A stretch of DNA of 38,039 bases from Haloferax larsenii JCM 13917 (GTDB lineage Archaea; Halobacteriota; Halobacteria; Halobacteriales; Haloferacaceae): positions 48,546 to 86,584 of the forward strand of contig NZ_AOLI01000018.1 in NCBI RefSeq assembly GCF_000336955.1, in the 5' to 3' direction. The notes under the pieces are model-generated. The model was not told where the DNA came from. It searched no databases and was given only the letters and a program-made list of their open reading frames with translations. Each line of letters begins with the position of its first letter. The first letter of the stretch is position 1. The position numbers and the translations under genes were made by a program. Below, piece after piece: positions 8,016 through 28,338 of the stretch.

Positions 8016-8540
8016 TCAATTTTCCAACATTCTCCCTTGAAGCGTACTCAGGAGAGCGAGGACACCGACCAGAAGCGCACCGAGTGCGACCACCGACTCA
8101 CTCCCCGTGACAGAGAGAAACACAGCGTACCCGACACTACATCCCGCCGCCAACACGACACTGCTACTGATTGCATGAACCAATTCGATTCGGCGGGTCG
8201 AGGCATCGCTGCCAACTTCTCTGGCGATACTGAATCCGTTTTGGCCGACGTTCCACGAGAGGAGTAGCAAGAACGAGGCGGCGAGGAGAAACGACGGTGC
8301 CATCCCAACAGCACCGGCGAACAGGATTGCACCGACGAGCAGAACGTTCCCCGCCGAATACACGTTCACAGAGCCGCGCACGAGGCCAGCACCGAGAAGT
8401 AAAACGCCGAGTGTGCCCGCCGCGACAGTGTAGACAGACACTGCAGTGACGATGGCCGTTCCGATGGCAGCCACGAGCGCGATGGAGCTACTCAGAAGTG
8501 GTGGCATCTCCTCGGGACGAGCAGGTAGATTACTATTCAC
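8016..8540 (-). CDS. Small multi-pass membrane protein (DUF7519-like)
   Basis: 174 residues, almost entirely hydrophobic, with about five or six membrane helices (for example SSIALVAAIGTAIVTAVSVYT, VLLVGAILFAGAVGM, FLLAASFLLLLSWNVG, VLAAGCSVGYAVFL, LGALLVGVLALLSTL). It overlaps the end of the DUF58 gene by 8 bases and is the last gene of the DUF4129-DUF58 operon. Small membrane proteins in this place are common in haloarchaeal DUF58 operons and are annotated as DUF7519; I assign that name from context and layout only. No enzymatic motif is visible. Confidence 0.8.
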   Translation of the reverse strand: MNSNLPARPEEMPPLLSSSIALVAAIGTAIVTAVSVYTVAAGTLGVLLLGAGLVRGSVNVYSAGNVLLVGAILFAGAVGMAPSFLLAASFLLLLSWNVGQNGFSIAREVGSDASTRRIELVHAISSSVVLAAGCSVGYAVFLSVTGSESVVALGALLVGVLALLSTLQGRMLEN

Positions 8541-10524
8541 GGGAAATCACCCCAGATAACGGCTCTGATGGGTCCCAGTCCGTAACGTCGAGGCCTGCAT
8601 TTCGGAGTTCTTTGAGACGGAGTTGTCTCCTGAGAGACGCGTATCCGACCCCACACGTCCGTGTCGAAACGGGAGAGGCCGTCGGGTCAGGACTGAGAAC
8701 TGATACTGCGTAGCCGTAGGCGTCGAGGCGTCGGGCAGCCTCCCTCGCCTCGTCGTCACAAAGCGGCGAAATGAAGAGTATCTGCGTATCCAGCGGGACT
8801 CGCTGGTTGATTTCACGAAGTCGGGTACTCGCGTCGAACTCACTATCCGGTGTGTCCCACGAAAATGCAGACTCTCCGAGCAACAACTCCCGAAGTCGAC
8901 GGCGATGGACGTCACCGGTACCCGGAGACAACCAGCAAGACCGCGGAGACAGTGCTGTGACTCCAACCGGCGTACTGTCGGCCAGTAGGCGAGAGGCGAT
9001 GGAGTACGCAGCTGTCACGCTCTGGCGAACGACTGGTTTGGTGCAGTCGGTCGCCGGTTCCAAGTACGCTTCGGCACGAACGTCGACGACGAGGAGAATC
9101 GTTTCGAGATGTGGCTCCCGGAAGTCGACCGTCGTAAACTCACCCGTCTTTGCTTTCCGATTCCAATCGATTCGCGAGAGAGGGTCACCGTGCCGGTACT
9201 CTCGTACCGAATGAAATTCCACACCAGCGCCTTTGGTCCTCGACCGCACTTGGCCGGGAAGAACTGTCGTCTTCCGCTGGAGACCACCGCCAGACACGGG
9301 GTGTTCCTGCAGTTGGCACGTAATCGTCGTCTCCGACGACTGGTGAAGGGTTTCTCGCTTTTTGACGCCAGCGACATCACGCGTGACGACGAGCGCCGGG
9401 TCGTAAGCGTGGACGCCGGCGACAGCTTCGACGGTGTACGAAAACGTCGCCTCCTTCCCGGGGCGAAGTGCAGTTGTAAAGGTAGGCGAGCCTTCGGAGA
9501 CTGCAAGTCCCGTGGGGACGCCGTCGACGACGCGGATATCAGCGAGCGTCTCGTCACCAGTGTTCAGAATCGAGACGGTGATTTCGATTTCTTGCCCGGG
9601 GTCGGGAGCCGTCTCGCTCACAGTTCGTGTGACCGAGACCGTCTGTGTCGGAAGGGAGACGGCACGGGCATACCCATAAACGGTGATTCCAAACAACGTC
9701 AGGAGGAAGAGCGCGGGTCGCAGCGTGACGATACCGAGTCCAGCAGCACCGAGCGCTGCCGCCGCGACGCCGCGTGTCCGTCCCGTACTCACTTCACGGG
9801 TCTCCGAATCCTCACGGTGCTCTGAACCCTCACGGCCGTCCCAGAACGAACGAGTCGTCACGGTTGGGTCGTCTTCGACCGACGTTCGAGCTGCTGCAGA
9901 CACGTCCGATGAAACGTCGTCCCCATCGAACCGGCTCGCAAGCTCGGAGACGGCATACCGTGCCCGTCGAGCAAACACCGGCTCGCTGCGCCAGAGAGAG
10001 CGCACCCGGTCCCAAAGCGAGAGCGACGGAACAACGTCGTCGGCAAAGAACGCCGCAGCCTGTGGGTTTTCAGTCCACGTTCCGTCGTCCAACCGCGTCT
10101 CGATGTCTGTTCGGGACCACTGTTCCGTTCGAGCGAGGACAGTCCTCGCTACCTCCCGTAGTTCAGCCCGGAGTTCGAGTCGTTCATTCGGGTCTTCCTC
10201 GCGGCGGTCCGTCCATTCGATACTCTCCAAGCGCCGTGCAAACGCTGCGCCGGGATGTTCGTATCGAGGCCGGTGCTTCGGAGTGGGAAATTCGGTCGAG
10301 CGTGTCTGTTGTTCGTCGCGACGGGCCTTGGAAGCGGAAGCCTCACCAGCGACATAGCGTGCTGCGAGAAGCAACGAGAGCATGCCGACGAGTGCAATCG
10401 GTGCTGTTCGTGCGACGCCAGAAAGGGAGACGAGACTCGCCACCGATGGCAGGGCAACGAGACACAGACCGGTCAGACTCGACACGAGACCGACGACCAG
10501 AACGATGCGGTTGGTCCTGTTCAT
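8533..10524 (-). CDS. DUF58 domain membrane protein
   Basis: 663 residues. Two N-terminal helices (about 8-60) are followed by a long hydrophilic region to about residue 245, two more helices (GVAAAALGAAGLGIVTL, LFLLTLFGITVYGYA), an extracytoplasmic CARDB-like domain (PDPGQEIEITVSILNTGDET) and a C-terminal DUF58 module. Its hallmark SVREYRHGDPLSRIDWN is followed by a von Willebrand A-like start, ILLVVDVRAEA. DUF58 proteins usually work with a MoxR AAA+ ATPase and DUF4129 proteins in assembling or maturing surface or secreted complexes. The gene overlaps the DUF4129 gene by four bases (ATGA). No MoxR gene is present in this window, which is odd. Confidence 0.92.
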   Translation of the reverse strand: MNRTNRIVLVVGLVSSLTGLCLVALPSVASLVSLSGVARTAPIALVGMLSLLLAARYVAGEASASKARRDEQQTRSTEFPTPKHRPRYEHPGAAFARRLESIEWTDRREEDPNERLELRAELREVARTVLARTEQWSRTDIETRLDDGTWTENPQAAAFFADDVVPSLSLWDRVRSLWRSEPVFARRARYAVSELASRFDGDDVSSDVSAAARTSVEDDPTVTTRSFWDGREGSEHREDSETREVSTGRTRGVAAAALGAAGLGIVTLRPALFLLTLFGITVYGYARAVSLPTQTVSVTRTVSETAPDPGQEIEITVSILNTGDETLADIRVVDGVPTGLAVSEGSPTFTTALRPGKEATFSYTVEAVAGVHAYDPALVVTRDVAGVKKRETLHQSSETTITCQLQEHPVSGGGLQRKTTVLPGQVRSRTKGAGVEFHSVREYRHGDPLSRIDWNRKAKTGEFTTVDFREPHLETILLVVDVRAEAYLEPATDCTKPVVRQSVTAAYSIASRLLADSTPVGVTALSPRSCWLSPGTGDVHRRRLRELLLGESAFSWDTPDSEFDASTRLREINQRVPLDTQILFISPLCDDEAREAARRLDAYGYAVSVLSPDPTASPVSTRTCGVGYASLRRQLRLKELRNAGLDVTDWDPSEPLSGVISRE

Positions 10525-11303
10525 GGCTCAGACAAGTGAGGTGCTTCTGAGTCAGACGTTTCCGAGTCGAGCGCTTCTGAGTCAGGTGCGTCTGAATCGG
10601 GCGAGTCAGTCGTGGGATCCGACTCGGGCGACGTCGTTCGACCACGCTGAATCGACTCAAGGGCGTCCTGTGCACGCTGTTCACGCTCTCTGGTCGGTGG
10701 TTGACCGCCGTATCGAACCGCACAGAACAGGTCGGTTATCGAGTTCACTGCAGACTCCGGGAACCCGGCTTCGAGTGCGTCCTGCTCAAGTTCGGTGGGC
10801 GTCCGTTGCGGGTCGGGTGCCGAATCGAGCAGCGAGACCATAGCGTACCACGAGCGATAGACACCGTTTGTCGGTGGGACGTCTCGGACGTTGGGGGCAG
10901 GTGTGTGCGTCGTCTCTGTGGTTTCAGACACCGCCTCGGTGCTCGTGGCACCGATTTCAGTTCGGGAATCGTCGCTCGTGAGTCGCCAGAGTACGAGGGC
11001 GGAGCCGGCAACGAACAACACGACGCCGACTCCGAGCCGAGAGAGCGTACTCTCGGAATTACCACCGCTATCGAGTCCGTTTGTCAGGTCTACGTCGGGG
11101 AACGCGACGTGTTCGACAGGCTGTCCGTCGGGTTCGTCTGGTTGTGGGCTCCCCTCGTCACTGTTCGGACGCGGGGACGTCGGGACGTCGCCGGAATCAG
11201 TTGGTGCAGTCGGCTGTGCAGACTCAAGCGTCCCTGCGGCGACACCGAGGACTGCGAGAGCAAACACTGTCACGAGGAGGGCAATAGCACGGGACCGATT
11301 CAT
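10521..11303 (-). CDS. DUF4129 domain protein
   Basis: 260 residues. A signal peptide or anchor at about 5-25 (AIALLVTVFALAVLGVAAG) is followed by an acidic, Pro-rich external segment, a second helix at about 90-110 (LGVGVVLFVAGSALVLWRL), and a cytoplasmic DUF4129-type domain with YRSWYAMVSLLD and TPTELEQDALEAGFPESAV, the usual motif region of the family. The last 30 residues are five-residue acidic repeats (DSDAP, DSEAL, DSETS, DSEAP) encoded by a 15-base tandem repeat. It is the first gene of the DUF4129-DUF58-membrane protein operon and overlaps DUF58 by ATGA. Function is inferred only from the operon. Confidence 0.88.
   Translation of the reverse strand: MNRSRAIALLVTVFALAVLGVAAGTLESAQPTAPTDSGDVPTSPRPNSDEGSPQPDEPDGQPVEHVAFPDVDLTNGLDSGGNSESTLSRLGVGVVLFVAGSALVLWRLTSDDSRTEIGATSTEAVSETTETTHTPAPNVRDVPPTNGVYRSWYAMVSLLDSAPDPQRTPTELEQDALEAGFPESAVNSITDLFCAVRYGGQPPTREREQRAQDALESIQRGRTTSPESDPTTDSPDSDAPDSEALDSETSDSEAPHLSEP
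10540..10614 (-). repeat. 15-base coding tandem repeat at 3' end of DUF4129 gene
   Basis: About five degenerate 15-base units encode the repeated acidic pentapeptide DSEAx at the C terminus of the DUF4129 protein. Unit length is a multiple of three, so copy number can change without a frameshift. Confidence 0.7.
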
Positions 11304-15380: not shown

Positions 15381-15423
15381 AACCGTCCTCACGATGTGTC
15401 TAAACCACGTCAATCTTCACGAA

Positions 15424-15443
15424 TTTACATTCGCGAGGGTAGT
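15424..15443 (+). repeat. ORB-like repeat 4
   Basis: TTTACATTCGCGAGGGTAGT, 70 bases after repeat 3. Confidence 0.85.
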
Positions 15444-15457
15444 CCCTCACGTCACAC

Positions 15458-15477
15458 TTACATTCGCGAGGGTGGTC
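15458..15477 (+). repeat. ORB-like repeat 5
   Basis: CTTACATTCGCGAGGGTGGT, 33 bases after repeat 4. Confidence 0.85.
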
Positions 15478-15498
15478 CTTCCTCCCACAACCTCACTC

Positions 15499-15518
15499 GT
15501 TACACTCGCGAGGGTACC
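15499..15518 (+). repeat. ORB-like repeat 6
   Basis: GTTACACTCGCGAGGGTACC, 42 bases after repeat 5; the last bases diverge. Confidence 0.8.
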
Positions 15519-15525
15519 CTCCTCT

Positions 15526-15550
15526 GTTACAAACGCGAGGGTGGTGTCTG
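15526..15550 (+). repeat. ORB-like repeat 7
   Basis: GTTACAAACGCGAGGGTGGT followed by GTCTG, 27 bases after repeat 6. A degenerate eighth match, TTTACAAACGCGAAGCCACC, lies at 15634-15653. Confidence 0.85.
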
Positions 15551-15693
15551 ACGCTTACTTGCGCGGAACCACTAAAAATGTAGACCTAATTGAATCAGGC
15601 AATACAACGTTTCGTGATGCTGTATTAGGAGAATTTACAAACGCGAAGCCACCCCCTCAAGTTTATTATGGTGGGTCTGAATATCGAAGCTAC

Positions 15694-16926
15694 ATGACTA
15701 CGGACGAGGCTGAGGGTGGTGACCGAGACCCCCTCTTCCGATACGATCAACCTATCTTCGCGAATGAAGATATTCTCAAGATATCACACCTTCCGGGACC
15801 CGATAAAATTGTTGGCCGTGACGAGCATATGGCAAAGGTCGCTCAGGCACTCAATCCGGCAATTTTCGGTCGTGAACCGACACATCTCTTTATCTTCGGG
15901 AAAACTGGCTCGGGAAAGACGCTCACCGCTCGGCTCGTAAGCGAGCGGTTACAGAACGAGGCTGCTCGCGAATCGGTCGAGGTCAACACTGCAGTCATCG
16001 ACTGTGGTGAGCAGAACACCGAGGCATCTGTAATCAAAACGCTCGCCTCACAGATCAACGACCCCAACAAGAGTGGGATGACGATTCCCGAGCGTGGTCT
16101 CTCTACTGGTGATTACTACAACCGTCTGTGGCAAGTCCTCGACACGTGCTCGGACGTTACAATCGTCATTCTCGACGAAATCGACATGCTACGTGACGAC
16201 GAGGTACTTCGAAAACTCTCGCGCGCGGGCGAGAATCAAAAAATCGTGGACTCCCGCCTCGGAATCGTCGGTATCTCCAACAAGATCGACTACCCCGAGG
16301 AACTCACAGAGCGCGTCAAGTCCAGTTTCTCCCACGACGAACTTGTCTTTCCGTCGTACGACGCGAACCAACTCCGTGAAATCCTCGAAAACCGGCGCGA
16401 TGCGTTCAAGCCCGGTGTGTTGACGGAAGATGTGATTCCACTCGCGAGCGCACTCGCCGCACAGGAACACGGCGATGCCCGCAAGGCCATCGATATCCTC
16501 CGTAATGCGGGCCGAATCGCACGAAAGGAAGGGTCTGAACAAGTCACCGACGAACACGTCCGTGCTGCGAAAGAAAAGAGTGAGGCCGACCGGTTCAGCG
16601 AACTCATCGAGGGCACTGCCACGCAGTCGAAGGCGGTACTGTACTCACTCGTCCTTCGGACGGGCGGGCGAAAGACGGCCGAAATCACTACGAACAAGAT
16701 TTATCGCCAGTATCTCGAAGTCGCTGACGAACTCGACTTAGACCAACTCTCGGAGCGGCGTGTCCAAGAACTGCTTCAGGAACTCGACTTCCTGAACGTG
16801 ATTCAATCGGAAGTTCGAGGCCGCGGGCGAGGACAGGGCGTCCACGGGACCCACCGATTACTCGAAGACCCCGATATCGTAAAGCGGGTGTTACTTCGAG
16901 ACAGTCGAATTTCGACGCTAGAATAG
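15694..16926 (+). CDS. orc: Orc1/Cdc6 replication initiator
   Basis: 410 residues from the ATG at 15694 (MTTDEAEGGDRDPLF). The frame is open upstream to 15394, but that part is made of origin repeats translated as xARVV units. A TATA-like GTTTATTATGG at about 15661-15671 sits 28 bases before this ATG, as expected for a leaderless start. The AAA+ ATPase has Walker A GKTGSGKT at 69-76, Walker B IVILDE at 157-162, sensor-1 Asn196 in GISNKID, and sensor-2 Arg in GDARKAIDIL near 263. A winged-helix DNA-binding domain fills about 310-410. It binds the ORB repeats directly upstream and recruits the MCM helicase. Which of the several haloarchaeal Orc paralogues it is cannot be told here. Confidence 0.95.
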   Translation: MTTDEAEGGDRDPLFRYDQPIFANEDILKISHLPGPDKIVGRDEHMAKVAQALNPAIFGREPTHLFIFGKTGSGKTLTARLVSERLQNEAARESVEVNTAVIDCGEQNTEASVIKTLASQINDPNKSGMTIPERGLSTGDYYNRLWQVLDTCSDVTIVILDEIDMLRDDEVLRKLSRAGENQKIVDSRLGIVGISNKIDYPEELTERVKSSFSHDELVFPSYDANQLREILENRRDAFKPGVLTEDVIPLASALAAQEHGDARKAIDILRNAGRIARKEGSEQVTDEHVRAAKEKSEADRFSELIEGTATQSKAVLYSLVLRTGGRKTAEITTNKIYRQYLEVADELDLDQLSERRVQELLQELDFLNVIQSEVRGRGRGQGVHGTHRLLEDPDIVKRVLLRDSRISTLE

Positions 16927-17936: not shown

Positions 17937-19088
17937 ATGTTGCGGCAGTTCGCAGAGGATTTCTTCACCGTCGTGGCCACGATTGTGGTCATCTCACTCG
18001 TGGTTGGCCAACTCCTCGGCCAACCCGTCCTTCTGGGGTACGTCACCTCTGGGAGCATGTCGCCGACGCTGCACACGGGAGATGCCTTCGTCGCTGTCCC
18101 TGAGCCATTCGCTGGTGAAATCGAACCGGGTGATGTCATCGTCTTCAACGCCGTCGAACTGCAAGGGGGTGGGCTGACGACACACCGTGTCGTCGAAGAG
18201 ACCGAGCGCGGCTATATCACGAAAGGAGACAATAATCCGTTTCGGGACCAAAGCAGCGACGAACCGGTGGTCACAGAAGACAGAATCGTCGCGACGGCCC
18301 TCCAGATAAACGGCAACGTGATTCGAATCCCGGGGCTGGGGACTGCCATCGCGACGGTTCGAAACACCGTGTCTGGTGCGCAAACGGCGTTGACGACTGC
18401 ACTCGGTGTCGATTCACCGTTTGGCTCACAGGGACTCAGTGGCCTGTTTATCTCCGTCGGACTCGTCTTGTTTCTCTTCATATTCGTCGACGATTTACGC
18501 GACGGACAACAGAGACGCCGAGACCGAAAGCGGTCGCGAACTGACAGCGACGCCATCGACGGCCGGTGGGTCGCTCTCGGGTTGGCATTCCTGGTGCTCG
18601 TCCCGGCGAACGCCGCAATGTTGGCACCGAGCGGGACACATCAGGTCGCTGTCGATGGAGACGACCTGTCAGACGACATCCAGCCCGGTGACCAGGTCGA
18701 AAACGGGTTCACCGCGAAGAACGGCGGACTCGTGACGATGCTCATCTTCCTCGAAACGACCCACCCGGACGCGGAGATGAGCCAACACAGGCTCGTCGTT
18801 CCCCGTGGTAAATCGGCGACAGCGACGCTCTTCGTGACAGCACCGCCGCCGCGAAAGCAAACCGTCGTCACGATTACCGAGCGGCGATACTTCCTGATAC
18901 TCCCTCCAGGCATCATCGAACAGTTGCACTCGATTCATCCGGTCGTGGCTATCGCCGCATTCAACGTACTCATACTCTTGAGTGTCTCTGCGATGGTCGG
19001 TGCAGTCTTCGGGTTCGGCTCGAAGCGTCTTCGAGATACGAGCCGCGACCTTCCGCTCACACGTCGGCTCAAGCGCCTGTTCAAATGA
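17937..19088 (+). CDS. Signal peptidase I (S26, Ser/His type) with C-terminal extension
   Basis: 383 residues. N-terminal anchor at about 10-30, then the S26 catalytic core. Catalytic Ser40 lies in SGSMSPTLHTGDAFV, the base is His83 in LTTHRVVEE, and GDNNPFRD at 97-104 supplies the conserved Asp. A His rather than a Lys base groups it with SipW and eukaryotic Sec11, not with bacterial LepB. After about residue 165 comes a long extension: a helix (LFISVGLVLFLFIFV), a basic loop, a second helix (VALGLAFLVLVPANAAML), an external beta domain, and a final helix (VVAIAAFNVLILLSVSAMVG). It acts outside the membrane on exported precursors. It heads a block of genes encoding proteins with SipW-like leaders, which are its likely substrates. 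Confidence 0.93.
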   Translation: MLRQFAEDFFTVVATIVVISLVVGQLLGQPVLLGYVTSGSMSPTLHTGDAFVAVPEPFAGEIEPGDVIVFNAVELQGGGLTTHRVVEETERGYITKGDNNPFRDQSSDEPVVTEDRIVATALQINGNVIRIPGLGTAIATVRNTVSGAQTALTTALGVDSPFGSQGLSGLFISVGLVLFLFIFVDDLRDGQQRRRDRKRSRTDSDAIDGRWVALGLAFLVLVPANAAMLAPSGTHQVAVDGDDLSDDIQPGDQVENGFTAKNGGLVTMLIFLETTHPDAEMSQHRLVVPRGKSATATLFVTAPPPRKQTVVTITERRYFLILPPGIIEQLHSIHPVVAIAAFNVLILLSVSAMVGAVFGFGSKRLRDTSRDLPLTRRLKRLFK

Positions 19089-19110
19089 GTAAATCGGGGA
19101 CCCAACGCAC

Positions 19111-20211
19111 CTACCCATCGATGTTTCCGTGATAGTAGAGATTCCGCACTTCTTCCGGCTTCAACTCTCGACTGTAGATACGGGCGTCGTCTAACAGTCC
19201 CGTAAATCCATAGTCGAGATTCCCTCCGTGGTCGAGTCCGTTCCCGATACGGAGTGGTTGCTCCGATGGTTGTGCATCGGGAACACTCGGAACGTCGTAG
19301 CAAGCTTCGTTGACGTACACGTGGTCTCGTTCGTCACTGTGTGTCCACGTCAGAAGCTGCCAATGGCCCTCCCGAACTGAAATGCCAGTGAGTTCGTATC
19401 GCTCTGTGGTCTCGATTACAATTTCGTGGTCCCTATCGCTGAACGGTCGCTCGGCGATGAAGAACTGATAGCTTTCATCGCCGACCGAATTCCACTTGCT
19501 AAACAACCTCGCTAGGTCGTGGCTTGGGTTCTCCCAGTACCGAACCCAGATAGAGAGCGTAAAGTCAGACGTCAGGTCTAACTCGTCGTCGTCTCGGACC
19601 GTCACGACGTCGCGATTACCGTTGAAGCGCAACGTCCTGTTTTTGGGTACGGCGTTTCTCGGCCACGTCTGCGGCCACGTAGAGCGACTTCGTCGCGCAG
19701 TGTGGGAGCCCCATTCGTCGTCGAGAGTGCTGGTGTTCTTGGGCTCGCTGAACGTCCATCTGGCGACTTGGGGGTCGTCGCACACGACGGTGAAGTCCCG
19801 TGTGAGTTCGACTTCTTGATCATTGCCGCCTGCAGAGATGGTGAGTTCGACAGACGTCGTCTCTTCTCGGGAACACGACAGCGTGGCTTCGATGTCGCCC
19901 TCTTCACCGGGGGCGAGTTGTCTCGGCGTCTCGACATCGCGTATCGGCGCGCCGAGTGGCACGTCGACGTGGAACCACGTGAGTGGCACGTCGAATCGAT
20001 TCGTCAGCGTGGTGAGTGTCACGCTGTCGCCGTCACTGCCTTCCACATGCGTGTCATCAACTCCGAGAAGGGCGTTCGAATCAGCCTCTGTTCGAAGGGT
20101 GCTTGCTCGGTCGGCGTTAATCGTCGTGAACCCGGCGGTATCGACAGCGAGCATCCCCGCGCCGGAGGCGAGAAACGCGAGTGCGCCCCGCCGAGTCCAC
20201 TTCTTCGTCAT
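19111..20211 (-). CDS. LamG-fold secreted protein with SipW-like leader
   Basis: 366 residues. The leader has a twin Arg (TRRGALAFLASGAG) and the motif DTAGFTTINADR, which matches the GAFTSIEADR motif of the two DUF1102-like proteins nearby. An Ig-like segment follows (about 45-140: LTNRFDVPLTWFHVDVPLGA, APGEEGDIEATLSCSREETT). The C-terminal 200 residues form a concanavalin A-like/LamG domain, with LRFNGNRDVVTVRDDDELDL, FTLSIWVRYW and GFTGLLDDARIYSRELKPEE typical of that fold. This suggests a surface protein that binds a polysaccharide or glycan. It converges with the signal peptidase gene at 23 bases and follows the membrane-bound regulator gene by 54 bases, probably in one operon. Confidence 0.87.
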   Translation of the reverse strand: MTKKWTRRGALAFLASGAGMLAVDTAGFTTINADRASTLRTEADSNALLGVDDTHVEGSDGDSVTLTTLTNRFDVPLTWFHVDVPLGAPIRDVETPRQLAPGEEGDIEATLSCSREETTSVELTISAGGNDQEVELTRDFTVVCDDPQVARWTFSEPKNTSTLDDEWGSHTARRSRSTWPQTWPRNAVPKNRTLRFNGNRDVVTVRDDDELDLTSDFTLSIWVRYWENPSHDLARLFSKWNSVGDESYQFFIAERPFSDRDHEIVIETTERYELTGISVREGHWQLLTWTHSDERDHVYVNEACYDVPSVPDAQPSEQPLRIGNGLDHGGNLDYGFTGLLDDARIYSRELKPEEVRNLYYHGNIDG

Positions 20212-20265
20212 CCGTGAATTTCTGGGAGTGTATTCGTCATTCTTTGCGCCTCGGTGAGCGATTCG

Positions 20266-20826
20266 TCATTCCATGAGTTCTGGTGGTTTGTCGGTCTCTC
20301 CCAACCGCATACGCCGATTCTGGTAGACGTGATACGCCGCAGAGCCCATGAAGAGAAGCGAAATAATCGCGGCCCACACCAGTTGTGGAATCCACGCGGG
20401 AAACACGCCAACCCAGACGGCCGTGACGAGGCTAATCGCCACTGCCGAGAGCCCGAGGTAGTATTCGGCCCACGGAATCGAGTTACCCGGCACGACGTCC
20501 AGATAGACATCCAAATCTGTCGCCTGTTCGGTCAGCGTGATAGTTCCGTTATCGTGAGTGATGACACCCGCACGTTCCAACGCCGGGAGGTGGGTCTGTT
20601 GCATCGAGGTGTACACGCGATGTCGCTCGGTGGACGTGACTTCCCGGACGGCCTTTCCGTTTTCCCACGCTGCGACTTGTTCTGCGAGGTTCGAGAGCTC
20701 AGTTGGCCCGTCTGCTTGTTTGATCGCGTGGAGGGCATACCGACGGCGGTGGCTACTCAAGAGACCGTGGACCTCGTCACGCGAGACGGGTCTCTCACCG
20801 GAGTCTCTCTGCTCCAACTGCGCCAT
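20266..20826 (-). CDS. Winged-helix protein fused to two membrane helices (DUF7344-like)
   Basis: 186 residues from the ATG at 20826 (MAQLEQRDSG). The frame continues to 20901, but a TATA-like element (ACACGTATTACGTTC) centred 27 bases before 20826 favours the internal start. Residues 15-110 form a winged helix-turn-helix with LLSSHRRRYALHAIKQ, the opening typical of haloarchaeal DUF7344 proteins, and SMQQTHLPALERAGVITHDN as the wing region. Two helices follow (LGLSAVAISLVTAVWVGVF, LVWAAIISLLFMGSAAYHVY). Such membrane-tethered regulators probably sense an envelope signal and control nearby genes. It lies upstream of the LamG-protein gene on the same strand. Confidence 0.85.
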   Translation of the reverse strand: MAQLEQRDSGERPVSRDEVHGLLSSHRRRYALHAIKQADGPTELSNLAEQVAAWENGKAVREVTSTERHRVYTSMQQTHLPALERAGVITHDNGTITLTEQATDLDVYLDVVPGNSIPWAEYYLGLSAVAISLVTAVWVGVFPAWIPQLVWAAIISLLFMGSAAYHVYQNRRMRLGETDKPPELME

Positions 20827-21043
20827 ATGTGTCCCTTCAGTAGTGAACGTAATACGTGTTCTCGTTACATTCTGCATTTTGATATTGTCAATGGCAACCA
20901 TATGTCATACAAACAGTGTCTCCCAATGTGGCGAAGGAAGACACCAACTAACTCTCCAACTGACCGTCAGCAGAGTAGCGAGACGAACGCCGACAGACAA
21001 CCCAAGCGAGTATCCATATCCGCCGTGAGGGCGTGAGGACCGA

Positions 21044-21679
21044 TTAGACTTCGTTGATCGTGATGGTCAGCGTTTCACTCTCCGTCCCGGTGTCGCCAGT
21101 TTCGAGTTTGGCACTCAGTTCGGACGTCGCATCGGCCGCGACGTCTTCGCTGTAGGGGTTGCTGCCGCCAATCTCGGTGAGGAACGTGCCACCAGATTCG
21201 AGTTCGACGGAGAAGGCCTGCCCGCTGCCATCGTCGTTGTTGACCAGCGTGAAGAAGCCAGTGGGGTAGGTGTACGTGCTGTTAGGCATCAGACGCTCGT
21301 CGGTACTCCCATCTTCGTATCCGAAGACGACAGTCACGTCGTTGGCGATGAGGCTCACGTAGTTCTCGTCGATGTCTGCGCTTCCGTTCGCATCGAGCGT
21401 GTCACTCGCCGTGGGGAACAGCGTCGTGGGGTCTGTGACGAGCGTTCCGTCGCTGCTGCGCAGTGCGACTTCGTCGGAAGACGCGTCGACCAGCACGTCC
21501 GTGAAGTTGTCTGCAATCTCCGACCCGTCTTCGTTCCCGTCGTCGTCGACGCCGACCACGTTGACTTCGACTTCGCGTGTCGCCTCGACTGTGCTAAATG
21601 CGCCAGAGCCGAATGCCGCACCAGTTCCGATACCAATCGTCCCGATGAGTCCGAGGACACTTCTGCGGTTCATCTTCAT
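21044..21679 (-). CDS. DUF1102-like exported protein with SipW-like leader (A)
   Basis: 211 residues. The leader MKMNRRSVLGLIGTIGIGTG is followed by AAFGSGAFSTVEATREVEVN. The GAFSTVEA motif resembles the cleavage region of SipW substrates such as TasA (GGTWAAFNDI), which would put the cut just before the Phe. The twin Arg may instead direct Tat export. The mature part is acidic, beta-rich and without Cys, ending in ELSAKLETGDTGTESETLTI, which fits a camelysin/TasA-like beta-sandwich or DUF1102. It is divergent from its paralogue at 21799 and shares dyad-containing promoter DNA with it. It is a likely substrate of the signal peptidase at 17937. Confidence 0.85.
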   Translation of the reverse strand: MKMNRRSVLGLIGTIGIGTGAAFGSGAFSTVEATREVEVNVVGVDDDGNEDGSEIADNFTDVLVDASSDEVALRSSDGTLVTDPTTLFPTASDTLDANGSADIDENYVSLIANDVTVVFGYEDGSTDERLMPNSTYTYPTGFFTLVNNDDGSGQAFSVELESGGTFLTEIGGSNPYSEDVAADATSELSAKLETGDTGTESETLTITINEV

Positions 21680-21798
21680 ACCTGCACCCTTCGAAAAGTG
21701 ATGACTTACTAATGACTGGCGTTAGCTGGGCTAAACCACTGATTAAGGGGGCTAATGCTGTTCAGTAATAAGCCCATGTAGGAGAGAGTTCGGGTAAG
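21680..21798. promoter_or_regulatory. Divergent promoter region of the two DUF1102-like genes
   Basis: The 119 bases hold two adjacent dyads, TTAGC-TGG-GCTAA at 21722-21734 and ATTA-AGGGGGC-TAAT at 21742-21756. A TATA-like AGTAATAAG follows at about 21764-21772 for the rightward gene, and a purine-rich AAGGGTGCAGG leads into the leftward start. The dyads are well placed for coordinated control. Confidence 0.5.
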
Positions 21799-22371
21799 AT
21801 GAATCGCAGAAGTCTCTTACTCAGTATCGGTGCCGCAAGCGTCGGAACAGGTGCCGTCTTCGGCTCCGGTGCGTTCACTTCTATCGAGGCAGACCGTAAC
21901 GTCGACCTCAACGTTTCCAGTGACAGCGGCTCGGCACAGGTAAGCTTCGACAAGGGAAGTGGTGTTGGTGCGGGAACGATTATCGGAACAGATACGAGCG
22001 AGTCCGTCGACGTGATCAAGTTCGAGGAGACGAACCTCAACGAGCGCGCGAAGACGACGTTCACTGACGCACTCGAAATCGACAACAACGGCAGTAACAC
22101 AGTCAACCTGTACGTCGACGGGAGCACTGATGGCGTCGGTGCCGACCCGAGTAACGGCGACGTTCTCGACTTCCGCGTCGACAACGCGTCTATCGTCGGA
22201 GACGGAACGTCCGGGAACGCAATCGAACTCGGTCCCGACGGAAACGGTGGGCAGAACGCTGACGTCGTCGAGGTCGACATCGTCGTCGACCTCCTGGACG
22301 ATAACGTCGACGGGAGCAGCCTCGACGATATCGAGTCGGTGACGTTCGTCGTGGAAGCGACGAACAACTGA
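21799..22371 (+). CDS. DUF1102-like exported protein with SipW-like leader (B)
   Basis: 190 residues. Leader MNRRSLLLSIGAASVGTGAV runs into FGSGAFTSIEADRNVDLNVS, almost the same as in protein A. The mature part is an acidic all-beta domain with repeated short strands (NNGSNTVNLYVDGST, DVVEVDIVVDLLDD, IESVTFVVEATNN) and no Cys. It looks like a secreted structural subunit rather than an enzyme. By analogy with TasA and archaeal bundling pilins, strands exposed by processing may mediate polymerisation; this is inference. The Gly-rich anchored protein gene follows after 29 bases and is probably co-transcribed. Confidence 0.86.
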   Translation: MNRRSLLLSIGAASVGTGAVFGSGAFTSIEADRNVDLNVSSDSGSAQVSFDKGSGVGAGTIIGTDTSESVDVIKFEETNLNERAKTTFTDALEIDNNGSNTVNLYVDGSTDGVGADPSNGDVLDFRVDNASIVGDGTSGNAIELGPDGNGGQNADVVEVDIVVDLLDDNVDGSSLDDIESVTFVVEATNN

Positions 22372-22400
22372 CGGGCGAGCCACTATAGGTCCCCGCGAGT

Positions 22401-23630
22401 ATGAACCGTACCCTCGTCGCCCTCGTCGCCCTCGCCGCAGTTCTCAGCGGCACAGTCTTAGCGACGGGTGCCTTCACGGGTGGCGACGAGATTGCACCGG
22501 CATCCGATTCTGGGGTGTATCTCACCGCGGCAGACACCGACAACGGCAACCGCTACGTCGAGTACGACGACGCTGGACGCATCCGACTTCATCTCTCTCC
22601 GGTCCTTCCGAACAGCCACACGCGAGTGAACGACCTCTTCGTCGTTGGATTCGCTGGCTACGAAAACAGCAACAACAGTACGACGGTTCGACTCAGGGCC
22701 GATAGCGAGCGGATAACGATTCATCGGATGGACACCGGCGAGCGCGTCGAGGGTGAGCCCATACAGCTTCGCCCGGACGAGTCGGTGTTGCTCGGCGTCA
22801 CTGTCATCCCCGAGGACCGCGATTTCACGGGTGAAATCACCGTCGAAGCCACCGTCCCTGAATCGGGGTCCAACTCTGGCGGAGGGTCCGGCGGCCCGGG
22901 CGGCAGCGGTGGCGGTTCGGGCGGCGGCGGTGGCGGTTCGGGCGGCGGCGGTGGTGGCGATGGTGACGGTGACGACGGAGGCTCTGCCGGCGGTAGCACT
23001 GGCGGAAGCGACAACGGTGGTTCCGGCGGTGTCGATAGCGGAACGATTGGTGACGATGCGACGGACGACTCGGGCACCCAGGGTACGCTTACGACTGCTA
23101 CTACCACTCCCGAAGAGTCAGGCGATGAGAACACGAGCGATGGCTCCGTCGTCACCAGTGCTCCTGAGTCGGACGATGGCGACTCCATCGACGACGGGCA
23201 GTCGTCGAGGCCGACAGACGGCGCTGAACAGCCCACCGAACTGAGTGGATTTATCCCCGGACTCAGTCCCGTCTTCGGTGTTTCGTGGCTGTGGTGGTTC
23301 CCACTCGGTGGGTTTGCTGCCGTGCTGTCGAACTACCTCGTCCAGACGCGACTTCGGGACGTGCTGCCCGTCTTCAAGACACAACAGTCTGTGCGACGTC
23401 GTCGGCTGAGAGACGTTCTTCTGCGCGAGGCCGCAGTAGGTGTGGTTGTCGTCGTCCTCTCGGTACTGGTCTCGTTCGCCCTCGCGAGTGCTGGCATCAC
23501 CGGCGTCCCACAACTCGTTGGCACCCTCGGCTTTTCGGTCATCGCCGGAAGCACGTCGGGCTACAGACGCTTGCCGAACATTCAGCTTACCAGCCACGGT
23601 GTGGATGGTGACCCACTCGAATCAGAGTAG
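22401..23630 (+). CDS. Surface protein with Gly-rich stalk and C-terminal membrane anchor
   Basis: 409 residues. A signal peptide ends in SGTVLATGAFTGGDEI, again with a GAF motif. The external beta domain (about 30-155) has DUF1102-like features (RIRLHLSP, VNDLFVVGFAGYEN, ITIHRMDTGERVEG, LLGVTVIPEDRDFTG). A Gly/Ser stalk (about 160-220) and an acidic Thr/Ser-rich segment, probably glycosylated, follow. Two or three C-terminal helices (WLWWFPLGGFAAVLSNYL, VGVVVVVLSVLVSFALA, LVGTLGFSVIAGS) separated by a basic loop anchor it. It could tether fibres of the preceding DUF1102-like protein to the membrane, playing the role TapA plays for TasA. That role is inferred. Confidence 0.85.
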   Translation: MNRTLVALVALAAVLSGTVLATGAFTGGDEIAPASDSGVYLTAADTDNGNRYVEYDDAGRIRLHLSPVLPNSHTRVNDLFVVGFAGYENSNNSTTVRLRADSERITIHRMDTGERVEGEPIQLRPDESVLLGVTVIPEDRDFTGEITVEATVPESGSNSGGGSGGPGGSGGGSGGGGGGSGGGGGGDGDGDDGGSAGGSTGGSDNGGSGGVDSGTIGDDATDDSGTQGTLTTATTTPEESGDENTSDGSVVTSAPESDDGDSIDDGQSSRPTDGAEQPTELSGFIPGLSPVFGVSWLWWFPLGGFAAVLSNYLVQTRLRDVLPVFKTQQSVRRRRLRDVLLREAAVGVVVVVLSVLVSFALASAGITGVPQLVGTLGFSVIAGSTSGYRRLPNIQLTSHGVDGDPLESE

Positions 23631-23667
23631 CTTAGGCCGAGCGACTGGCTGAGTCGCGTCGGGCCGA

Positions 23668-23745
23668 ACCGAGTTGTTCGTCAGGAGTCAACCGAGTCGT
23701 CAGGAGTCGTCGACCTTCGAGTTGTCGACCTGCGAGTCGTCGTTC
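23668..23745. repeat. Tandem repeats at a convergent junction
   Basis: An imperfect direct repeat, ACCGAGT(TGTT)CGTCAGGAGTC, occurs at 23668-23689 and 23691-23708, the second without the 4-base insert. It runs into 15-base repeats at about 23706-23745 that encode the DUF5305 C terminus (DDSQV DNSKV DDS). The DUF5305 stop codon (TCA on the plus strand, 23700-23702) lies in the second copy. Confidence 0.7.
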
Positions 23746-24836
23746 CAAAGGAATTCCCCGCCGGTCTCTGGCTTCGGAGGCTTTTGATATCGAAACAGTC
23801 GGTCGCCGGTAAATACGACAAATTCGTCGCCCTCTCGCTGTTCGATGACGCGGTTATCCGTGTCGATGGCGACGTCGACCAGCCCTTCGAGGGAATCGAC
23901 TTCGACAGACCAGACAGTCTCTCCGACGGGTTTGATTTTCCCGACTGTAATCCAGTCGTCGAACTCCTCGCGGGCCGACTGATACGCCAGCCACTCTTCT
24001 TCGCGGTCAGTGAGCGAGAGCCGACCGGTCGACCGCGCAGCGACGAGACCGCCCGCGGCGACCACGCCGAGCAAGAACAGCACTGGACTGCCGACCTGTC
24101 GGAGAAGGCCGTAGTCGGGCATCACGGTCACGTCTGCGGTTCTCTCGTCACCGTGGTTGGTTCGTCCGGGGTCCTCGACGCGGTAACTGTTCTGTCTCGG
24201 AACGACCGGGAGGCGATACGTTCGAGTCGTGTCCACTTCCTGTCCGTTCCGAGTGCCCGATAGCTCGACCCGTGTGACAATCATCACGTCGAGTTGGCCG
24301 GGCGTCCCACCGTGTTCACGGTCGATGCGACGAACGGTTTCAGTCGCGTCGCTGACGTTCAGTGAGAAGGGAACCGAGAGACGTTCGTCTGGCGTGAGTG
24401 ACTCGTCTCGCTTTTGGGCGAGTTCACGCTCGACCTGCCAGTAGACGACTTCGTCGGACGAACCGGCCGAATCGACCGACCGATACCGCACCACTACTGT
24501 CGTCTCCGCGGCGAGGTCGCTCTCGTTGCTGACTCCGTACGTATAGGTGAACGACCCGGTCAGTACGGGAGCGACGTGAGTCACGTAGACTGACCGGTCT
24601 CGGAGGACAGTTCCCTCGGCGAATGCCGACGTTCCATTGCGGACTGTCGCGTTGTGCGTGTACGAGCCGCTGGACTGCCACGAGGAGAGTTGCCGAGTAA
24701 CTGTCTCGGTTTCCGGGGCGACGTGGGTCGTGTACGTCATGTACCCGCCGAGTAGTCCGACGACCAGTAGACAGACGAGAATAAGATCGAAATTATCGAT
24801 AATTGTCTTCGTGATGTCACGTCGCCGACTACTCAT
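23700..24836 (-). CDS. DUF5305 domain membrane protein
   Basis: 378 residues. N-terminal helix at about 16-38 (LILVCLLVVGLLGGYMTY), a large external beta domain at about 45-240, a second helix (VLFLLGVVAAGGLVAAR), and a cytoplasmic tail of about 110 residues ending in a DxSxV repeat. The external part has the DUF5305 pattern GSFTYTYGVSNESDL, LAAETTVVVRYRSV and VEREL. DUF5305 genes are often found with signal peptidase I genes in archaea and Gram-positive bacteria, which fits this cluster. The fold suggests an assembly or scaffold protein. A TATA-like CCTTATCTA about 28 bases before the ATG indicates its own leaderless promoter. Confidence 0.85.
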   Translation of the reverse strand: MSSRRRDITKTIIDNFDLILVCLLVVGLLGGYMTYTTHVAPETETVTRQLSSWQSSGSYTHNATVRNGTSAFAEGTVLRDRSVYVTHVAPVLTGSFTYTYGVSNESDLAAETTVVVRYRSVDSAGSSDEVVYWQVERELAQKRDESLTPDERLSVPFSLNVSDATETVRRIDREHGGTPGQLDVMIVTRVELSGTRNGQEVDTTRTYRLPVVPRQNSYRVEDPGRTNHGDERTADVTVMPDYGLLRQVGSPVLFLLGVVAAGGLVAARSTGRLSLTDREEEWLAYQSAREEFDDWITVGKIKPVGETVWSVEVDSLEGLVDVAIDTDNRVIEQREGDEFVVFTGDRLFRYQKPPKPETGGEFLWNDDSQVDNSKVDDS

Positions 24837-24910
24837 AGAATATGAAACGTCGAGTGGGGTAGATAAGGTTTGATACAGATTGGCGGCGGGACGGGTTCAG
24901 CGATTTCGAA

Positions 24911-24955
24911 GCGCGAAACCGAGACAAGAGGCGCGAAACTGAGACAAGAAGCGCC
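24911..24955. repeat. 20-base tandem repeat
   Basis: GCGCGAAACCGAGACAAGAG at 24911-24930 and GCGCGAAACTGAGACAAGAA at 24931-24950, then GCGCC. Lies between the small membrane protein stop at 24989 and the DUF5305 promoter. Confidence 0.85.
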
Positions 24956-24988
24956 CGAGGTGGGAGAGCAACACGTACGTGGAGAGCG

Positions 24989-25300
24989 TCACTCCCGAGA
25001 GTGTAACGAATAGGCGATGAGGAGGACACCGAGGAACTGGAACGTCCGCGTGGCGAGTGTCAGCGGGCGCTGGTATTGCAGTCCAATGTAACCCTCTCGA
25101 AGGAGGAGCGAGCCGACGAAGGCAACGCTGAATGCGACGGCTGTGAGGAAGAACAGCCCCAGCGACAAGGCCTGCATCGTCCGGCTATCGTGGCGGAGAT
25201 AGCCGCGATAGGCTTGATAGCCAACGTAGCCGCCGACGAGCGTCGAACCGAAGGCGAGCGTGATGATGAGCCAGTCGAGTATCGCAGTTAGTCCAACCAT
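24989..25300 (-). CDS. Small membrane protein (DUF7521-like)
   Basis: 103 residues with three helices (LDWLIITLAFGSTLVGGYVG, LSLGLFFLTAVAFSVAFVGS, LATRTFQFLGVLLIAYSLH) and the loop YQAYRGYLRHDSRTM. Haloarchaea often have such a protein, named DUF7521, encoded directly after a winged-helix regulator, as here with one base between the genes. It may be a membrane partner or sensor for that regulator. The family name is given from layout and context. Confidence 0.82.
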   Translation of the reverse strand: MVGLTAILDWLIITLAFGSTLVGGYVGYQAYRGYLRHDSRTMQALSLGLFFLTAVAFSVAFVGSLLLREGYIGLQYQRPLTLATRTFQFLGVLLIAYSLHSRE

Positions 25301-25301
25301 C

Positions 25302-25673
25302 TCAGAGGTTCTCCCACATTTTCTTGAATCGGTCGGCAGTGTCGTCTTCTTCTTGGCCGGGGAACGCTTCTGGGGTCGTTCGAGTCACGGACGCTTCGAA
25401 GCTTCCGACGTCCAATTCGAGAGAGAACTCCGAGAGTGTAGCCGCATAGACCTTGTAGTGGTTACCGCTCTTCTGGACTTTCGTTTGTTCTTCGATAAGA
25501 CCGTATTCCTGTAATTGTTCGACCCGCCGGTAGACTGTCGGCTTGGACATCTCACATTGGGTGGCGAGTTGTTGGGCGGACATGGGTTTGATACTTGTTG
25601 CTGCGAGGATGTCTCGGGCGTACTCGTCGCTGAGGATGTCGAGAATCTCACTCAGCTCCGGCTCCTCAGTCAC
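25302..25673 (-). CDS. Winged-helix (ArsR-like) transcriptional regulator
   Basis: 123 residues. The helix-turn-helix covers about 8-75: ILDILSDEYARDILAAT, then MSAQQLATQCEMSKPTVYRR as recognition region and LQEYGLIEEQTKVQKSGNHY as the wing. It has no metal-binding Cys pair, so it is not a metal sensor of the classical ArsR kind. Start is GTG, with a TATA-like element (TCTATT) about 30 bases ahead. It is followed after one base by a small membrane protein; the pair is one operon and may control the DUF5305 or surface genes nearby. Confidence 0.9.
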   Translation of the reverse strand: MTEEPELSEILDILSDEYARDILAATSIKPMSAQQLATQCEMSKPTVYRRVEQLQEYGLIEEQTKVQKSGNHYKVYAATLSEFSLELDVGSFEASVTRTTPEAFPGQEEDDTADRFKKMWENL

Positions 25674-27157: not shown

Positions 27158-27462
27158 GTGAATGACACGATTGGGTGATGGGAACTGTCTAGGTACGTAA
27201 GGTCGAGACGCGAACAGCCCACAACTCACGTGGACATGTCGCTCGAAGACCTTTTCAGCGCGTGGTTTGCGGCGGTTCTAGAAGAAACTTGGGGACGTAA
27301 CAAGACAGTGACGGTATCGAAGCAGGCAGTGAAAATATAATTAAATTACAACACTTCCAACGAATTGTGAATGATATAATCCACTCCCGCCCGTCGAGGA
27401 CCAGTTTTGATAACTGCTGCAAAAATATTATACTGCTTTATGATACAATAATCTATAAGAGC
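27158..27462. other. Divergent promoter region
   Basis: 305 bases between the LolA-like gene and a rhomboid gene. It contains two AT-rich elements that could be TATA boxes for the rhomboid: AAATATAATT at 27332-27341, and AAATATTATAC at about 27423-27433. No gene seen. Confidence 0.5.
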
Positions 27463-28338
27463 GTGGGTACCGACACAGAACACACGAGTCAGAAGTCGTT
27501 ATACCGACTGTTTTCGGAGCGTACGCGCTTGGCAGATTTTGGGTTTATCCTCGCATTTCCCGCTGTATTGATTCTCGTGTATCGGCTCCCACACGCGGTC
27601 CGTGAGTCTCTCGTATTTGATTACACCGACCCGACGGTAGCGACCGCGTTTACCTCGTCGTTCGTTCATCTGGAGCTCGGACACCTCCTCACGAACGTCT
27701 TTCTGTACTTCGTCGTCGTTCCCACGCTGTACCTTCTCGGTGTCGCGGGCGGTAATCGGCGACGATTCTATATCTTCGTGAGTACAGTTCTCGTTGCATT
27801 TCCTCCCGTGCTTTCGTACCTGAACCTCGCCATCATTCGGTCGTCGGTCACACTCGGCGCATCGGGTGTCGTCATGGGCCTCGTTGGCTGTCTCCCGCTC
27901 ACATTGGCCGACTATCTAGAGAGTCGGTTCGGTATCGGGCCGGTACGGACGTTCGCGCCCATGCTGTTTCTCACGAGTTTGGGACTCGTTTCGGTCTTGA
28001 GTGTCCAGTCTGTCGTCCCGGAGAACTCGACGGTGTTGTTCATGACTGCCGGACTGGTCCTCGCTGTCTTCCTCGCTGTCTTGCTCTACGCAATCTCGGC
28101 CTACGAGCAAGCAGATGACATCCTCTCGAAACTTCGCTCCAGTGCCGACGCGACCGGCTACTTCGAGTTGAGCGTCGCCGCTGTCTTCCTGTTCGTCACG
28201 GTTTTGTTCGTCGCATTTCCGGTCGACCCGACGACGGAGAGTGGTGTCGTAAATCTCTACGAGCACTTCGTCGGCTACTCGTTGGGCTTTATCGCATCGT
28301 TCACGACTGTCGAAGTACTGAACCAATTCGGACGGTAG
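27463..28338 (+). CDS. Rhomboid family intramembrane serine protease (1)
   Basis: 291 residues from the GTG at 27463. Another GTG at 27367 is in frame, with a TATA element 30 bases ahead, and would add 32 residues; those are rich in Ile, Asn, Lys and Cys, unlike haloarchaeal proteins, so the later start is preferred, without certainty. About seven helices. Family marks are present: FVHLELGHLLTNVFLYF, the catalytic Ser in LGASGVVMG, and the catalytic His in EHFVGYSLGF in a late helix. It should cleave membrane-anchored substrates within the membrane. The stop codon lies in the first unit of a 31-base tandem repeat. Convergent with the EamA transporter. Confidence 0.88.
   Translation: MGTDTEHTSQKSLYRLFSERTRLADFGFILAFPAVLILVYRLPHAVRESLVFDYTDPTVATAFTSSFVHLELGHLLTNVFLYFVVVPTLYLLGVAGGNRRRFYIFVSTVLVAFPPVLSYLNLAIIRSSVTLGASGVVMGLVGCLPLTLADYLESRFGIGPVRTFAPMLFLTSLGLVSVLSVQSVVPENSTVLFMTAGLVLAVFLAVLLYAISAYEQADDILSKLRSSADATGYFELSVAAVFLFVTVLFVAFPVDPTTESGVVNLYEHFVGYSLGFIASFTTVEVLNQFGR

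Follow-up and report, generated by a model that had tools for sequence, protein, structure and literature searches.

Tat-fimbriae (Taf, or "tafi"), named by Galeva et al. (iScience 2025;28:111793, as cited in PMC12687288), are the closest described relatives of the locus considered here. In the account given in PMC12687288, tafi are thin filamentous appendages of haloarchaea that are exported by the Tat pathway and have TafA as their core component. Two further fibers bear on the comparison. In the TapA-SipW-TasA system of Bacillus, TasA is cut between TWA and AFND, with a phenylalanine at P2', a site that is cut poorly by the ordinary LepB and is cut by SipW, which TasA requires; the TasA donor strand begins with residue 28, and F29 and I32 are the residues it employs. 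The archaeal bundling pili of Pyrobaculum, built from AbpA (PDB 7UEG), are described in PMC9245690, as presented in a paper citing it.

We analyzed a window of DNA, by which we mean the whole stretch of 38,039 nucleotides from Haloferax larsenii JCM 13917. We assign a probability of roughly 90% to the reading that the stretch carries a Taf cluster on a megaplasmid of the H. larsenii type. The system itself is already described, and the broad reading of the locus as encoding a surface fiber is correct. What is new is the plasmid-borne copy in a Haloferax, the spacing common to the leader motif and the TasA donor strand, and the archaea-wide linkage of DUF5305.

Gene content, distribution and plasmid context

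Four genes received Taf names from NCBIfam models (Table 1). TafA, TafC and TafE scored above the respective cut-offs, and TafF aligned over its full length with a score under the strict cut-off; its place is the same in the clusters of Haloferax, Haloarcula and Halorubrum. The four genes presumably correspond to the published ones, a match that goes by the NCBIfam names. As in the published system, the TafA, TafC, TafE and TafF families occur together with Tat leaders, and their order is kept with an S26 peptidase and a DUF7344 protein. The copy analyzed here differs in being plasmid-borne and in a Haloferax, in having a DUF5305 gene directly adjoining tafF, and in the low score of its TafF.

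Table 1. Features of the analyzed region, with positions in the window and family matches
Feature	Position	Strand	Family match
SipW/ER-type signal peptidase I (S26), C-terminal TM-beta domain-TM extension	17937..19088	+	TIGR02228, E 6.3e-19, over cut-off; PF10502, E 5.6e-5; SipW model, E 7.3e-12, below model cut-off
TafC, LamG-domain fimbrial protein, Tat leader	19111..20211	-	NF052521, E 6.6e-168, 558.6 bits (cut-off 410); Laminin_G_3, E 4.6e-17
DUF7344 winged-helix protein, between tafA and tafC	20266..20901	-	PF24035, E 2.9e-25
TafA, major fimbrial subunit, Tat leader	21044..21679	-	NF052520, E 9.3e-77, 257.6 bits (cut-off 190)
TafE, fimbrial adapter protein, Tat leader	21799..22371	+	NF052522, E 4.8e-65, 218.6 bits (cut-off 155)
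TafF, membrane-anchored Gly-rich, Sec-type leader	22401..23630	+	NF052523, E 3.8e-110, 378/379 positions aligned, 368.6 bits (cut-off 420)
DUF5305, TM/Ig-like beta-sandwich/TM/small cytoplasmic domain	23700..24836	-	PF17231, E 6e-50
DUF7521 small membrane protein	24989..25300	-	PF24365, E 3.8e-9
HTH_20/ArsR-like regulator	25302..25673	-	PF12840, E 2.8e-12

Every gene called in the initial annotation was recovered at the same position, including the DUF5305 protein and two regulators, which are the DUF7344 and HTH_20 proteins. The order tafF-tafE / tafA-DUF7344-tafC / S26 is conserved in Haloferax elongans, Haloarcula and Halorubrum, and DUF7344 was found in nearly all taf loci. From this order as it stands in Haloarcula, together with the alphabetical naming, DUF7344 is probably TafB and the peptidase TafD. 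Of the loci examined, Haloferax (L039) alone has the DUF7521 gene and the HTH_20/ArsR-like gene next to taf.

A scan of genome contigs yielded 17 named loci. Of 117 Halobacteriales genomes, 8 had a clear TafA; six of these proteins scored over the cut-off and two were weaker but full length, and the exact system is therefore patchy; the TafA leader alone was matched in 66 of the 117. TafA of Haloferax elongans is 97% identical to the protein from the window, and that of Haloarcula amylolytica is 65% identical; loci also occur in several Halorubrum and Haloarcula species. The initial annotation had proposed a surface fiber or coat of all-beta subunits served by a signal peptidase, and had named a conserved neighborhood in other haloarchaea as a check. 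Both points are supported, by the family identities and by a neighborhood that is kept across Haloferax, Haloarcula and Halorubrum.

The whole cluster is 99% identical to the Haloferax larsenii megaplasmid pHl5678-1, on which tafA, tafE and tafF are annotated as hypothetical. Just upstream of the cluster lies an Orc1/Cdc6 gene (window 15394-16926), placing the fimbriae near a plasmid replication initiator. Further upstream, a region encoding DUF7269/DUF58 and DUF4129 proteins (window 8016-11303) is not covered by the near-identical H. larsenii plasmid and is a strain-specific insertion or loss. On the other side, a rhomboid-family protease gene (window 27367-28338, + strand; Pfam E 2e-6) recurs next to tafF or in its vicinity in Haloferax and Haloarcula clusters and in part of the Halorubrum ones (loci L032, L033, L034, L036, L039, L041, L042, L046 and L047), and the protease could act on TafF or on another anchored part. 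In a Halovenus metagenome-assembled genome, eight tandem GAF-leader-type paralogues adjoin a DUF5305 fragment and an S26 gene (locus L055, 1-9500), which suggests that such fibers have radiated more widely.

Signal peptidase, leaders and subunit fold

The peptidase is of the ER type, or SipW-like, with a Ser/His dyad and a third-box aspartate and without the catalytic lysine. Ser40, His83 and Asp98 lie in SGSM-P, TTHR and KGDNN boxes and are invariant in 23 related sequences. With TIGR02228, this invariance bears out the Ser/His signal peptidase (Ser40, His83) recognized at the outset. In each of the 23 long S26 peptidases that we compared, the C-terminal extension exceeds 100 residues. For the peptidase of the window, residues 200 to 383 were judged by eye to form a transmembrane helix, an extracellular domain and a second transmembrane helix. 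The extension may hold substrates or DUF5305.

The leaders of TafA (GAFSTVEATR, - strand) and TafE (GAFTSIEADR, + strand) carry the motif itself, that of TafC (KKWTRRGAL...AGFTTINADR, - strand) is a variant, and that of TafF (+ strand) is of the Sec type and ends in ATGAFTGGDE. A twin arginine is present in the TafA, TafE and TafC leaders, both in the window and in the clear taf loci. A search of the 3.7-Mb genome for GAF-[ST]-[ST]-[IV]-E-A as a DNA pattern gave two matches and no more, one in tafA and one in tafE, and none in the reversed control. The leaders that the initial annotation had noticed are present; its wording that the peptidase is "followed by" the genes bearing them was loose, tafC and tafA being on the opposite strand.

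Cleavage of TafA is predicted before A27, FGSG-AFSTVEATR. By analogy, the putative site between GSG and AF fits the TasA site between TWA and AF, and would place an aromatic residue at P2'. When mature TafA is read in the same way as TasA, A27, F28 and V31 come into register, with the +3 spacing of TasA F29 and I32. In light of this shared F/[IV] spacing, we infer that the GAF motif is best read as a cleavage site and a donor strand in one.

The structural model of TafA (185 residues, mean pLDDT 80) shows a beta-sandwich starting with residue 7, and the first six mature residues lie outside it. Comparison of the model with Foldseek and VIA-align gave a Z of 5.5 over 109 residues with AbpA (7UEG), below the level taken as specific, and a Z of 5.2 over 117 residues with self-complemented FimA. 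Many unrelated Ig-like proteins match the model at the same level as these pilins, and a specific TasA fold is therefore not demonstrated; TasA itself (5OF2) was absent among the matches listed. Of the fold comparison suggested in the initial annotation, the beta-sandwich stands, and the resemblance to AbpA is weak and nonspecific. AbpA and TafA are alike as archaeal proteins of beta-sandwich form, AbpA being a fiber subunit; unlike a relative, AbpA matches no higher than the Ig-like background, and sequence similarity was not found. A solved structure deposited as "Pilin" (PDB 9P0A) has the leader MKMNRRNVL...GTGAFSSVEADR, and TafE is homologous to it over residues 1-138 (E 2.1e-13). The TafA profile matches the first 74 residues of the same chain (E 3e-14), although this match is mainly to the leader and the first strand. 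A literature search for papers on entry 9P0A found none. A type IV pilus was also considered and rejected: type IV pilins carry a class III prepilin leader that is removed ahead of a hydrophobic N-terminal helix, and TafA lacks such a helix, its mature form opening with a polar stretch followed by a beta strand.

Two other readings of the cluster have to be weighed against Tat-fimbriae. A secreted coat or adhesin set that does not polymerize, composed of a LamG lectin and beta proteins, would account for the LamG domain of TafC, the all-beta TafA, and the acidic, Thr/Ser-rich character of the surface proteins. The family identity with published fimbriae and the kinship of TafE with a pilin of known structure speak against it, and we regard it as extremely improbable. 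A true TasA/camelysin system, homologous gene for gene to the SipW-TasA-TapA operon of Bacillus, has several points in its favor: the peptidase is of the ER type, Phe would stand at P2', the N-terminus has the F-x-x-[IV] of the TasA donor strand, AbpA is among the structure matches, and DUF5305 is common to haloarchaeal loci with GAF leaders and to loci with AYFSDTETS leaders. However, neither TafA nor TafE has a Pfam match up to E 0.1, Peptidase_M73 (PF12389) included, and the sole M73 match of the genome belongs to another protein, on contig C20. Moreover, the leaders are Tat leaders, unlike that of TasA, a Sec substrate, the AbpA match is no better than that of functionally unrelated Ig-like proteins, and a TapA-like gene was not seen. 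We consider such homology unlikely, and the TasA/camelysin kinship first proposed for the subunits is not demonstrated. The cluster, assigned here to Tat-fimbriae, has in common with the Bacillus system a Ser/His peptidase of the ER type that is dedicated to it, a predicted Ala-Phe at P1'-P2' and a predicted mature start F-x-x-[IV]; it adds TafC, TafE, TafF, DUF7344 and DUF5305 to what the Bacillus fibers have, and its peptidase bears the long C-terminal extension.

The same genome also encodes a classical protein of the TasA/camelysin type (C20:16851-20066, ORF 1456-2820), with a Peptidase_M73 match and the leader GTGTYALLSDTESS. It is fused to beta-helix-like repeats and lies away from the window genes.

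DUF5305 and S26 peptidases

The model of the DUF5305 protein (pLDDT 74, pTM 0.43) consists of a transmembrane helix, an extracellular Ig-like beta-sandwich, a second transmembrane helix and a small cytoplasmic domain. Its structure matches are generic Ig-like ones, namely transglutaminase, arrestin-like proteins, TRAP and Kir channels.

Is the DUF5305 gene an unrelated passenger beside the cluster? Halorubrum taf clusters lack an adjacent DUF5305 gene, the gene in the window is on the strand opposite tafF, and a literature search on DUF5305 found no paper, all of which would suit a passenger. The genomic linkage tells strongly against one. The 117 haloarchaeal genomes hold 95 DUF5305 genes. 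An S26 gene lies no farther than 3 kb from 79 of them and no farther than 10 kb from 89, where about 2% would be expected. The association is almost always with the long, SipW-like kind of peptidase: DUF5305 was near 87 of 110 long S26 frames versus 1 of 23 short, housekeeping-like ones, with "long" taken from stop-to-stop frames, so that the 110 may include a few housekeeping peptidases. DUF5305 was present in 63 of the 66 genomes with a GAF-leader match versus 10 of the 51 without one (Fisher p 2e-18, relatedness of the genomes being ignored), and in all eight genomes with TafA. The pairing extends beyond haloarchaea, as an S26 gene was nearby in 12 of 13 DUF5305 loci hand-picked from other families of the same phylum, and SipW/TasA-type leaders, e.g., GTLAYFSDTETS, were found in 8 of these 13. 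We therefore judge a passenger very unlikely. Of all the parts, DUF5305, which the initial annotation mentioned only briefly, has the linkage that is conserved most widely and explained least.

The Halorubrum genomes whose taf clusters lack the gene do carry DUF5305 beside another S26 gene. DUF5305 need not, then, be a dedicated Taf part; it looks like a shared accessory of SipW-type fiber systems, able to act in trans. We lean slightly toward a broader role, in which DUF5305 is a general component of archaeal SipW-type fibers, of the haloarchaeal Tat kind and of the Sec-exported TasA-like kind in other Euryarchaeota, serving either as the peptidase's partner in the membrane or as a platform for assembly or anchoring.

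A possible assembly route and its meaning

The observed family identities, conserved gene order, leader motifs, catalytic residues and DUF5305 linkage can be joined to a route of fiber assembly, proposed here from sequences and models. The RR leaders of TafA, TafE and TafC predict export in a folded state via Tat; TafA would be the major subunit, TafE the adapter and TafC the LamG protein among this Tat cargo, and TafF would travel by Sec and remain membrane-bound. Leader cleavage at (F)GSG before AF would presumably be the work of the dedicated Ser/His peptidase of the ER type and would put Ala at P1' and Phe at P2', the arrangement seen in TasA. Once released, the AF-x-x-[IV] N-terminus could serve as a donor strand and complete the beta-sandwich of the subunit that follows, comparable to F29 and I32 of TasA. 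DUF7344 would be a candidate regulator of the cluster, and DUF5305, with its two transmembrane helices and extracellular Ig-like domain, either a partner of the peptidase or a factor in assembly or anchoring. The roles that the initial annotation gave to TafF, as the base, and to TafC, as a glycan-binding accessory, are conjectural.

The locus is a copy, carried on a plasmid, of a fiber system that was named recently. It ties together two lines, the Tat-fimbriae of haloarchaea and the TasA-like pili of archaea, which have a dedicated type of peptidase in common and, on this evidence, a DUF5305 membrane partner as well. If DUF5305 proves to be required, it would offer a handle on how donor-strand fibers are assembled in archaea without a chaperone-usher machine.
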